Translations under genes and position numbers: made by a program
Shown: piece after piece, positions 1-53,994 of the stretch
Layout: each line of letters starts with the position of its first letter
Numbering within the stretch: position 1 is the stretch's first letter
Source: Arbacia lixula
Lineage: Eukaryota; Echinodermata; Echinoidea; Arbacioida; Arbaciidae
NCBI GenBank assembly: GCA_963669155.1
Contig: OZ022589.1
Location: 13,952,741-14,016,740, forward strand
Reading direction: 5' to 3'
DNA: 64,000 nt
Notes under the pieces: model-generated
Databases searched by the model: none
The model's input: the letters and a program-made list of their open reading frames with translations, nothing else
Told to the model about the DNA's origin: nothing

Positions 1-78
1 GCTCCTCCCTTCATCACTTTCCTCTTCCCCTTCCTCTAGAAAGTCCTCGAAATCCATAAAAAGATCGTTCTGTTCCAT
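1..78 (-). CDS. Acidic N-terminus of transposon-borne ORF, cut by window edge
   Basis: This is a 26-codon open start running off the left edge of the window. It begins at the ATG at 78-76 on the minus strand, and the same frame has a TAA about 60 bases upstream, so this ATG is the first available. The residues EQNDLFMDFEDFLEE closely match EQNDLYMDFEDFMED in the 152-residue ORF at 46168-46626, and both are followed by a Glu/Asp-rich tract. The two ORFs also lie at similar distances from matching TTAA-type terminal repeats (844 here, 45423 there), so both belong to one mobile element family. Function is unknown. The acidic, low-complexity start is not diagnostic of any domain. Confidence 0.6.
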   Translation of the reverse strand, partial: MEQNDLFMDFEDFLEEGEEESDEGRS

Positions 79-844
79 TCTTGATGATTGATCGAGGGCA
101 GTTTCGGAAAGCGAGTCAAGATCGAATGCGTGTTATACGTGAATGTAATGTTAAAAAGTCGCCAAATATAACAAAAACTAGCCCAATCGGAACTACCGCG
201 AAGGTGAACTATTGGCAATGGAATTAGCAAGTAGCGCAAAAGTAGTGCAATCTGGCGCCTAAATCGCAGCTGTGACAACACTGAACGTGAAGAAAAGACG
301 ATGTATAAAGACTCGCACGCACACACGCGCACACGTGAGACGTGTGGGGCCGGACAAAACGGATGACCGGATCTACTTTCACAGTCAGCTGGCGACCAAG
401 GCACACACATAAAATAAAAAATAGTGATAAAAATGTGAAATAAAGCATTGGCTCCTCAAAAATTTCGAAATGTTTAGCCTTTCGATTATTATTTATAATA
501 TTTTATATATATATAAGGTAAAGAAATATACACACAACCATTACTTACATGAGATTTTAACCTTAGAAAAAATTTCTCTGGAGCTCTGTATACGATTCTC
601 TGTGTAACATCCGGGGCCGTGAAGAGAGAATAGCCATTACGTGACGTCGTGCGCACTGAGTCGGATTTCGTGACTGGTTTTCAGGCTCTGAGCAGAGGCT
701 ATTTTTTGGGTACTTCAGTTGAGGATATCAAGAGGCGAGACGGTTTTTGTGATGTCATATGTGGATAAACATGTTGTAAATGGCATATGTTCTCATTAGA
801 TACCAAATTCATGGATATTTATTTTCCTCTTATATCAACTTTAA
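1..844 (-). mobile_element. Truncated copy of the TTAA-flanked 1.6-kb transposon family
   Basis: Read on the minus strand, the element starts at TTAA (841-844). Its terminal sequence AGTTGATATAAGAGG differs only slightly from AGTTGAATTAAGAAG at the end of the full copy (45423-47009). An inner GACGTCAC word at 637-646 sits about 565 bases upstream of the ORF start, and in the full copy it sits about 545 bases upstream. A CA/CG-alternating patch at 300-345 also has a counterpart there. The element continues beyond the window to the left. It lies just upstream of the IGF2BP micro-exon, so it is an intronic or upstream insertion. Confidence 0.65.
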
Positions 845-17070: not shown

Positions 17071-17270
17071 NNNNNNNNNNNNNNNNNNNNNNNNNNNNNN
17101 NNNNNNNNNNNNNNNNNNNNNNNNNNNNNNNNNNNNNNNNNNNNNNNNNNNNNNNNNNNNNNNNNNNNNNNNNNNNNNNNNNNNNNNNNNNNNNNNNNNN
17201 NNNNNNNNNNNNNNNNNNNNNNNNNNNNNNNNNNNNNNNNNNNNNNNNNNNNNNNNNNNNNNNNNNNNNN
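17071..17270. other. Assembly gap (200 N)
   Basis: Exactly 200 N, the same size as the other gap, so this is likely a fixed placeholder and the true length is unknown. Missing IGF2BP exons could in principle lie here. Confidence 0.95.
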
Positions 17271-42867: not shown

Positions 42868-43523
42868 TTAAAGAGATAATTTACTCTTGAGAAAAGTTGG
42901 TTTCAATGAAAGCAGACACATGAAATTAACATATTAGTGAAGCGGTGAAGGTTTGACAGAAATCCGTCAAAGGATAAGAAAGTTATGACCTTTAAAAATG
43001 TTGATTTTGTGAGGTCACATTTGAGGTGTTCTCCCATATTTTTTGTACAATCTTTTTCGGAAATGTGCATTTCCTGAAACACATGAAATTAACATATTAG
43101 TGAAGTGGTGAAGGTTTGACAGAAATCCGTCAAAGGATAAGAAAGTTATGATCTTTAAAAATGTTGATTTTGTGAGGTCACATTTGAGGTGTTCTCCCAT
43201 ATTTTGTGTACAATCTTTTTCGGAAATGTGCATTTCCTGAAACCTGTGCATTTGATTCATCATTAGAAATACATCTTTACACACATACCAGTATGAAGAA
43301 AAAATCATTCCGTTGTCGAAAACAAAAAAAGAGCAATTTATGGAATTATTCTGTACACCATATATGGGAGAGCACCTCGCACATGAGGTCATAAAATTGA
43401 AAATTTCAAAAGATTGATCTCTTGACAAATTTTTGTTAAACCTTCACTAATATGTTTCTTTCATGTTTTTTTCTTTTATTAAAACCAACTTATCTTCAGG
43501 GTAAACTTCATGTATCCCTTTAA
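42868..43523. mobile_element. Family A MITE with 163-bp internal tandem duplication
   Basis: The ends are TTAA-AGAGATAATTTACTC and CATGTATCCCT-TTAA. The block starting ACACATGAAATTAACATATT at 42916 is repeated at 43079 almost without change (one AGCGG/AGTGG difference seen early on). This is a recent local duplication of the left arm; the right arm is single. Confidence 0.85.
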
Positions 43524-45422: not shown

Positions 45423-47009
45423 TTAAAGTTGAATTAAGAAGGGCGCGAATTCCCGTAAATTTTGGTTATACACACTTTATATAGTTCATATAGGCTGTTC
45501 AAACAGAGAGCATATCAGAAAACTCATTTGAACGCTCAATATTCTGGTTTGAAAGTCGATATAAATTAGCCTGTTTAGAGTCCCCGATAAGCCTTGGACG
45601 CATAGGTACACGCTGAGCGTGACGTCACGGACGGGATTTGGGTAATATCCAGTGTCTGGTATCAATACAAAAATCAGTGCAGAAAGAGAGAGAAGATTTT
45701 ACCAATGTTTTTCAAAGGAAGCCATATCAAGCAATTACAAATCATATATACAAATCTTTACTCTCCCTATGTAGAAAAAAGTATAAATAACGGTTTTCAA
45801 GTCTTAAATTGTGAAGTAAGATTGCAAACGATGAGTTATTAGTCAATATTTTCACTTGATTTTCTTATTTTCTACAACTTGAGAATACTAGCGTAAAGTA
45901 GATCCGGCCATCGCCACCCAGCTCATACACACTTGAGCGCGCTGCTTGCTTGAACTTGTCCAGTATACTGCATGCTATGCGTATGGGCGCTCGTGTGTGT
46001 GTGTGTGTGCATGCTTGCAGCCAGCGCACGTGTACTCTATATTTATGTTGTGACGTGATCGCGAGAAACTTGTGCATGTTGGCTTTCTTTAGCTTTGACT
46101 TTCGTTGTGCATAATTAGCTTTCTTTCGATCTCGATCTCGCTGTTGACAAAAAAATAGTACCCAATAATGGAGCCATTTAGTGTAGAGTTGGAGCAAAAT
46201 GACCTTTATATGGACTTTGAAGACTTTATGGAAGATGATGAAGCTGAAGGAGGTGATGAAGGAGAAGAAAGCACGAACGAAGATGATGATGAAAGCTGGG
46301 AAGATGTCTCTTCAACAAGTGACGATGATGGGGAAATTGGAGAGCAAGGGGTGGTCGATCCAGTTGAAGTTCCCCCTGCTGCAGGCGGGGAAGTAAACGA
46401 AGAACCGGTAGCACCTGGGGTCCCACAGCCATACCTTCACGAGCATTTTCTATTTCACAAGTTCTCGCACACATATAATCACCAACTGATTGCCAGATGC
46501 ACTGATTATTACATTGAATTTACAATTTTATCTCTCATCCGCGGTGTTGAAGTCGAAAGACAAGGCAGTAAAATCGCTTCAAATGAGAAATATTGGAACA
46601 CTAGAGACACATCATTGACTATATGACATTGCTTAATTCTCATTTATTTTTAAAAATCATTCACTTAAAACCATAACAATAGAAGAAAAGTTCTGACGTG
46701 AAAGTAAATTCATTCATAATTGTACTAGCGTGTATGTCTATGCACACAATATACTGCACTGCTCGCTTTGTTTACTTTCTCACTGTGACCCAAATCCCGT
46801 CCGTGACGTCACAGTGCTCGAACAATAGTCTCGAGTACTCATCGCCGGAGCGATCAGAGAAAATATGGTGAGGGATAAATCGTCTAAATTTAATATTCTA
46901 AGCTTATTTTAGGGGGTTAAAAGGTCTCTCATAGGTAAGCTAGTGTCATAAGGATGATATTAATGCAAATATCTCATTATTTGGGATCGTCTTCTTAATT
47001 CAACTTTAA
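45423..47009 (+). mobile_element. TTAA-flanked 1.59-kb DNA transposon with bipartite inverted repeats
   Basis: The outer 19 bp (TTAAAGTTGAATTAAGAAG, 45423-45441) are a perfect inverted match of 46991-47009. If TTAA is the target duplication, the terminal repeat is AGTTGAATTAAGAAG. A second perfect 25-bp inverted pair lies at 45619-45643 and 46788-46812, containing TGACGTCA then CGGACGGGATTTGGGT, about 195 bp from each end. The DNA between outer and inner repeats is not conserved between ends, though its length is. Inside is one ORF (46168-46626), preceded by a CpG- and TG-rich stretch. TTAA targets suggest a Kolobok- or piggyBac-type mobiliser; no transposase is encoded. A truncated relative is at 1-844. 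Confidence 0.8.
46168..46626 (+). CDS. Acidic 152-residue ORF inside the TTAA transposon
   Basis: It starts at ATG 46168 and ends at TGA 46624-46626. Residues about 9-22 read EQNDLYMDFEDFMED and are conserved in the second element copy (1-78, minus strand), which argues for past protein-level selection. Residues 20-60 are very acidic (Glu/Asp with Ser), 61-90 are Pro/Val/Glu-rich, and the last 60 include PYLHEHFLFHKF and then IARCTDYYIEFTILSLIRGVE. No DDE transposase, THAP or HTH motif is visible. It may be an N-terminal exon of a larger lost protein, with the C-terminal part read-through into non-coding DNA. An acidic start followed by a PY-x-x-EP-like motif occurs in invertebrate proteins with the P2X7-cytoplasmic-type Cys-rich domain, but that domain is absent, so this remains speculation. 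Function is unknown. Confidence 0.5.
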   Translation: MEPFSVELEQNDLYMDFEDFMEDDEAEGGDEGEESTNEDDDESWEDVSSTSDDDGEIGEQGVVDPVEVPPAAGGEVNEEPVAPGVPQPYLHEHFLFHKFSHTYNHQLIARCTDYYIEFTILSLIRGVEVERQGSKIASNEKYWNTRDTSLTI

Positions 47010-53794: not shown

Positions 53795-53994
53795 NNNNNN
53801 NNNNNNNNNNNNNNNNNNNNNNNNNNNNNNNNNNNNNNNNNNNNNNNNNNNNNNNNNNNNNNNNNNNNNNNNNNNNNNNNNNNNNNNNNNNNNNNNNNNN
53901 NNNNNNNNNNNNNNNNNNNNNNNNNNNNNNNNNNNNNNNNNNNNNNNNNNNNNNNNNNNNNNNNNNNNNNNNNNNNNNNNNNNNNNNNNNNNNN
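53795..53994. other. Assembly gap (200 N)
   Basis: Exactly 200 N. True size unknown. Confidence 0.95.

Follow-up and report, generated by a model that had tools for sequence, protein, structure and literature searches.

Kolobok transposons are characterised, in the accessible parts of two accounts of the group (PMC6004289, PMC9587614), by TTAA target sites, RR termini, a THAP domain and a DDE motif, and their Kol0 lineage by KolX, a second, P2X7-like protein. The RR termini are the stated difference of Kolobok from piggyBac in the available part of the latter account (PMC9587614). The same excerpts give coding loci of about 2.3-2.5 kb in Xenopus for the Kol0 lineage of the Kolobok-1_XT type and mention neither a subterminal CRE nor bipartite ends (PMC9587614, PMC6004289). 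The T2-MITEs of Xenopus, presumed Kolobok derivatives, are described in the accessible part of PMC6004289 as short, non-autonomous elements with TTAA and AG termini. The P element and the zebrafish element Pdre2 have, according to the available sections of their descriptions (PMC7776569, PMC10983969), a THAP transposase, internally deleted copies, 8-bp target-site duplications and, apart from the terminal inverted repeat, a separate subterminal one (11 bp about 100 bp in and 12 bp about 400 bp in, respectively), which in the Pdre2 description is not a CRE (PMC10983969).

The element described here lies in a window, that is, the whole stretch of 64,000 nucleotides of Arbacia lixula DNA that was analysed, and belongs to a family (family 1) that is a young Kolobok, probably of the Kol0 type. 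It resembles the T2-MITEs in being short and non-autonomous with TTAA and AG termini; in contrast to them, the copies of family 1 are recent internal deletions with long arms, 1.15-7.3 kb in size among the 49 listed elements whose two ends are exact. Unlike at the Xenopus Kol0 loci, the transposase is spread over many exons. Its ends are bipartite, with a putative subterminal CRE. As in the P element and Pdre2, a THAP transposase is accompanied by internally deleted copies and separate subterminal repeats, whereas the 8-bp target-site duplication of those elements is absent and TTAA is duplicated here. Among the titles and abstract openings of the matches listed in full-text searches, we found no published subterminal CRE in Kolobok.

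To our knowledge, end recognition and the host factors of Kolobok-group TTAA transposons have hardly been studied, and a near-fixed short box common to diverged families offers a concrete and testable site. If this box is a CREB/ATF site, the many copies of such elements would also bring ready-made CREs into host DNA.

Architecture of the element in the window

An earlier note, made from the sequence of the window, had described the element as a TTAA transposon whose outer (19 bp) and inner (25 bp) inverted repeats are perfect, and this core observation is confirmed, as the arms of both pairs are 100% complementary over 19 and 25 nt and TGACGTCA lies inside the inner pair (Table 1). TGACGTCA is presumably a CRE, a name that we give it from its sequence. 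Since TTAA is counted within the 19-bp outer arm, the terminal repeat proper is of 15 bp, and two weaker imperfect inverted pairs are also present in the element. Outside the outer and inner repeats, there is no other long match between the left arm, on the KolX side, and the right arm, on the transposase side. The spacers between the two repeats had been regarded as DNA that drifted apart around an inner motif held constant; they are instead two different arms, each kept from copy to copy and never alike, so that the argument for selection from their drift fails.

The element was also said to encode a short acidic protein and no transposase, which is correct, as the open reading frame at 46168-46626 (152 aa) is its longest and the list of reading frames holds none of transposase length. 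The frame consists of 91 codons of the first exon of a KolX-like gene followed by 61 codons of right-arm DNA, and we rejected the acidic protein as a separate gene, since it represents the first KolX exon truncated by the deletion. In Pfam the whole frame yielded only a match to Nop14 at E 0.3, and its first 91 codons alone yielded nothing. About 15.6 kb present in the full-length type of element is absent at the deletion junction of the window copy.

Table 1. Position of the features of the element and of its sister element in the window
Feature	Position	Strand	Remarks
Non-autonomous Kolobok element, both TTAA included, 1,587 bp	45423..47009	.	internal-deletion derivative of the 17-kb element
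KolX-side end: TTAA target site and 15-bp terminal inverted repeat AGTTGAATTAAGAAG	45423..45441	+	
Transposase-side end: 15-bp terminal repeat AGTTGAATTAAGAAG, then TTAA	46991..47009	-	
Inner 25-bp repeat, CRE TGACGTCA at 45620-45627	45619..45643	+	CRE start 198 bp from the KolX-side terminus
Inner 25-bp repeat, CRE TGACGTCA at 46804-46811	46788..46812	-	CRE start 199 bp from the transposase-side terminus
TATAAATAA, 9-bp block common to family 1 and the sister family	45782..45790	+	probable TATA box of KolX
Acidic first exon of the KolX-like gene, 5' part, codons 1-91	46168..46440	+	
Deletion junction	46441..46444	.	4-bp overlap (GAGC, microhomology) of the two arm alignments to the C21 copy
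Remaining reading frame, right-arm DNA, accidental read-through	46445..46626	+	without tblastx counterpart in the sister family
Sister-family 19.5-kb Kolobok element, KolX-side end	1..844	-	whole element C14:13934081-13953584, begins about 18.7 kb before the window

The source element and its superfamily

Longer copies carrying a transposase between the same ends, for which the earlier note had advised a search, do exist. A protein search with the reading frame of a 3.4-kb copy (L010) identified the C21 copy (C21:702667-719813), in which the same outer ends enclose 17,147 bp with a multi-exon transposase of presumed THAP/DDE type. One strand of this copy carries a THAP exon and exons with GGDGRADSPGH, LVTDRHAQ...DVWH and SSVESFH (motifs read by eye, exons open), and the other strand exons of acidic and of Cys-rich type together with one that matches the C-terminal domain of P2X7. 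The two genes are convergent and each end of the element lies upstream of one of them. The reading frame of L010, which has the ends of the family, matched the THAP domain in Pfam (PF05485, E 1.6e-10, 42.1 bits against a cut-off of 23.9), and its THAP exon is also present in C21. In Pfam, one DDE exon showed a weak match to Mutator (PF20700, 24.9 bits, below the cut-off of 26.5), and the main DDE exon gave nothing significant in PDB (one match, E 0.48); the putative DDE motifs, with the C/DxxH that Kolobok has between the second D and E, were read by eye in exons common to C21 and the sister family. One KolX exon matched P2RX7_C below the cut-off (PF20478, E 0.0014, 19 bits against 23.5), the Cys-rich and acidic KolX exons had no match in Pfam, and the KolX exons are kept in the sister family.

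The superfamily had looked undescribed at first; by its TTAA duplication, AG termini (AGTTG...CAACT inside TTAA, of the RR...YY type), THAP exon and putative DDE and KolX-like exons the element is almost certainly a Kolobok. TTAA duplication would also fit piggyBac, the other main TTAA superfamily, and piggyBac too has subterminal repeats. We rejected piggyBac as a negligible possibility on the basis of the RR termini, which in the accessible part of PMC9587614 set Kolobok apart from it, and of the coding content, as coding copies that share these ends have a THAP/DDE-type transposase together with a KolX-like gene, and neither the THAP nor the DDE exons matched a piggyBac domain in Pfam.

Both arms of the C21 copy were present in all 21 sequenced short copies, 18 of which are single internal deletions, often with an overlap of a few bases at the junction, while in the other three, L009, L010 and L011, the arms are separated by DNA that is unmatched or duplicated. 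Breakpoints are common to L014 and L019, to L015 and L025 (and nearly to L018), and to L021 and L024. As these three deletion classes each occur at more than one locus, the shortened copies have probably moved on after their deletion, and the recurrence of one deletion at several of the sampled loci suggests that the window copy was mobilised in trans by a transposase of the C21 type.

Copies of the family in the host genome

The 25-bp inner repeat, with up to 3 mismatches, was found at 154+155 places in the 607-Mb host genome and its reversed pattern at 0+0, which shows that the repeat is not a chance word; among the 100 places listed, the matches are mostly inward-facing pairs. These 309 inner motifs correspond to about 155 copies of the family, so the element is by no means single, a point that the earlier note had left to a genome search. 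For the 19-bp end, with 2 mismatches allowed at most, the genome-wide count was 208+203 against 29+24 for its reversed pattern.

Twenty copies (L009-L028), all picked from perfect inner matches, were sequenced and make 21 with the window copy. Exact 19-bp ends were present in 20 of 20 and in the window copy, the arms are about 98-99.9% identical to those of the window copy, and TTAA stands at both ends of all 21, in differing flanks. One copy, L017, is inserted in another repeat, and when its flanks were rejoined at one TTAA, 81 matches were obtained, with 40 scored among 182 candidates. All 40 long matches span the junction with 95-99% identity over 130-144 of 144 bases, and the other 41 are short. 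The rejoined site of this one copy shows that TTAA is the duplicated target site and thereby bears out the assignment as a TTAA transposon. Two copies at C10:21805569 and C10:21811294 (L034 and L035) lie 5.7 kb apart with equal match scores and possibly represent a local duplication of host DNA that includes the element.

Variation of the inner repeat within the family

The earlier note had proposed comparing the 25-bp repeat with its flanks across copies, for which 13 KolX-side and 12 transposase-side arms not selected by the motif were available. Differences were found at 6 of 625 inner sites against 24 of 10,599 other arm sites, the latter count leaving out two sites that are peculiar to the window copy and account for 23 differences. 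Four of the six inner differences fall at two positions, 197 and 216, where the C21 copy and contig C453 have the same variant. In the full-length C21 copy both boxes are variant and the transposase-side CRE is broken (CACACGTCA). The exact 25-mer was present at +196 or +197 in 94 of the 100 exact outer ends listed, and by our arithmetic about 94% exact 25-mers are to be expected when 0.23% of sites differ. On these counts we rejected a stronger conservation of the inner repeat than of its flanks within the family, where it varies as freely as they do, in a comparison that is low in power because the family is young. The proposal that the inner motif is under selection thus stands on the comparison between families, while its two other supports, spacer drift and variation within the family, fall away. 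The 25-bp extent of the repeat is itself peculiar to family 1, as the other families have only ACGTCA or GACGTCA in common. An element at C6:13371489-13372768 with exact outer ends has the 25-mer starting 149 bp, and not about 197 bp, from one terminus and lacks the exact 25-mer at its other end.

Position of the CRE in diverged families

The sister family (family 2; C7 and C14), whose ends were located by comparison of its two copies, has matched transposase exons of about 48-88% identity, and its C14 copy reaches into the window with a CRE half-site at 642-647, 198 bp from the terminus. The half-sites of family 2 lie at 198 on the KolX side and at 198 and 205 on the transposase side, and in L047, a remoter relative, at 201. 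Family 3 (L049/L050/L052), with a THAP exon 38-39% identical, has the full TGACGTCA at 205 (offsets 205-207) from an end that was fixed by comparing two copies without use of the CRE, and no other half-site occurs in the first 2.6 kb of either copy read. Family 4 (L054), with a THAP exon 45% identical, has ACGTCA at 200 from an end found with the CRE in the scan rule. It is an older non-autonomous family whose ends start TTAAAGTAGAACTCC and TTAAAGTAGAACACC, its other end being known from the genome-wide pattern listing. Families 3 and 4 are each represented by the THAP exon and one end. With offsets of 198-202 in family 1, the half-site or full TGACGTCA lies about 198-207 bp from the terminus across the ends compared. 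Among further loci scanned, which showed weaker pairs or none, L050 and L055 gave no pair, L053 has a half-site at 158, and in L056 one lies at 197 but on the opposite strand; of the ends at these four loci, that of family 3 was later verified (in L049/L052).

The sequence around the box has diverged widely. At the transposase side, identity among the ends of families 1-4 is 38-48%, and TTAAAGT is the only invariant run of at least 5 bases. At the KolX side, families 1 and 2 reach 54% identity, and the longest invariant runs besides the terminus are 9 bp at the CRE (GACGTCACG, at 199) and the 9-bp TATAAATAA (at 360). Because MAFFT left the CREs of the four transposase-side ends unaligned to each other, the claim of conservation refers to distance from the terminus and not to alignment. 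Independent families are few and the half-site is short, with two families compared at both ends and two at the transposase side. On this comparative evidence the CRE core (TGACGTCA or its half ACGTCA) is very probably under selection.

Possible role of the inner repeat

The box probably serves the element in some way, and we considered how. With fair confidence we regard the window element as a non-autonomous Kol0-type copy whose inner repeat would be a subterminal cis element of CREB/ATF type kept at about 200 bp from the terminus.

The box could serve only in the promoters of the two convergent genes, with no part in mobility. That each end lies upstream of one gene and that, apart from the terminus, no invariant block on the KolX side is longer than the CRE and TATAAATAA would suit such a role, which as the sole explanation we hold to be possible rather than probable; against it, the spacing between box and terminus hardly changes in ends that can scarcely be aligned, and no conserved TATA-like block was seen by eye at the transposase side, where the terminus holds the only invariant run of at least 5 bases.

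It is somewhat unlikely that the repeat is a binding or synapsis site of the transposase, comparable to the subterminal repeats of the P element and Pdre2, with an incidental likeness to a CRE. Such a site would agree with a repeat that in family 1 is identical and inverted at the two ends, lies almost equally far from each terminus and is exact in 94 of the 100 outer ends listed, in elements of which the shortest of the 49 with both ends exact measures 1,151 bp. The available parts of the literature also provide precedents, as P-type THAP transposons have subterminal repeats of 11-12 bp (PMC7776569, PMC10983969) and the THAP domain of Galileo binds about 70 bp from the ends and again further inside (PMC3688188). 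Against it, the ACGTCA core is kept in families whose THAP exons are only 38-50% identical while the surrounding bases have changed. The arms kept in the 21 sequenced copies, all chosen by having the motif, extend for at least 468 and at least 437 bp, well beyond it, so that their retention is not specific to the motif.

Plain inheritance or chance, by which four related families would merely have retained a short word, is improbable. The families have a common ancestor and the chance of a half-site in a given 16-bp slot is about 0.0045, so a single case could be luck; nothing else has been retained alike in the diverged transposase-side ends except TTAAAGT (runs of at least 5 bases), and family 3 was inspected after the position had already been seen in other families.

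For the reading that we favour, a CREB/ATF-type element kept near each terminus, proteins of the CREB/ATF-type bZIP class are the obvious binders of a CRE motif. We refer to the box as a putative conserved subterminal bZIP-type site. As the core is constant while the transposases diverge, a conserved host bZIP protein is likelier to bind it than a family-specific transposase, and on sequence grounds such a protein is a reasonably good candidate. When bound, it might switch on the two convergent genes from one promoter at each end, with the conserved TATA-like block TATAAATAA serving the KolX-side promoter. A promoter role, to which a box upstream of one gene at each end with a TATA-like block on the KolX side is suited, appears rather plausible. 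The near-constant distance between box and terminus suggests that the box may also help to bring together or mark the ends for transposition; such a direct role is conceivable and somewhat doubtful, and it is compatible with that of a promoter, as the two are not exclusive. In the P element, which has terminal and subterminal repeats, the host proteins IRBP18 and Xrp1 take part in the repair of element breaks. The two reportedly bind P-element DNA as a bZIP heterodimer. More speculatively, and we think it unlikely in this full form, a Kolobok lineage might have locked a docking site for host CREB/ATF (bZIP) proteins about 200 bp, or roughly the length of one nucleosome, from each end, where the factor would turn the genes on and mark or pair the ends and so tie transposition in certain tissues, for instance the germ line, to signalling by cAMP or stress.

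Spacing of terminus and half-site across the genome

The shared position offers a simple rule for finding ends, TTAARR with a CRE half-site about 200 bp in. In the 64-kb window, the rule with the half-site 185-225 bp in found the two ends of the element at 45423-47009 and the sister end at 844 only, two extra rows being TTAAGA words inside ends already found. Genome-wide, the pattern TTAAAGTAGA-N178-208-ACGTCA occurred 106+107 = 213 times against 21+16 = 37 for the reversed control, and with the gap shifted to 78-108 it occurred 8+13 = 21 times against 13+22 = 35 reversed. Family 1, whose ends read TTAAAGTTGA, lies outside these TTAAAGTAGA counts, and the 213 matches represent copies of few families, with a few ends counted twice and some chance matches, rather than independent events. 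By eye, the first 100 places listed contain 17 facing pairs of the two different ends of family 4 about 1.3-2.3 kb apart, and in copies of this family the ACGTCA starts at about 189-204 among the places listed, a distance that is not exact to the base.

With the shifted gap, 13 of the 21 places have a match length of 102-104, and 3 of the 5 places with letters shown are copies of a single repeat in which ACGTCA stands slightly less than 100 bp in. Other spacings therefore exist, and a distance of about 200 bp is not universal. This repeat, starting TTAAAGTAGAAACATGAAAG or similarly, is seen for example at C1:19104329, C3:5681922 and C4:17248394, and by eye it resembles a 163-bp tandem repeat at 42916-43243 of the window. 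The window also contains, at 17071-17270 and 53795-53994, runs of exactly 200 N, which are assembly gaps or masked stretches.
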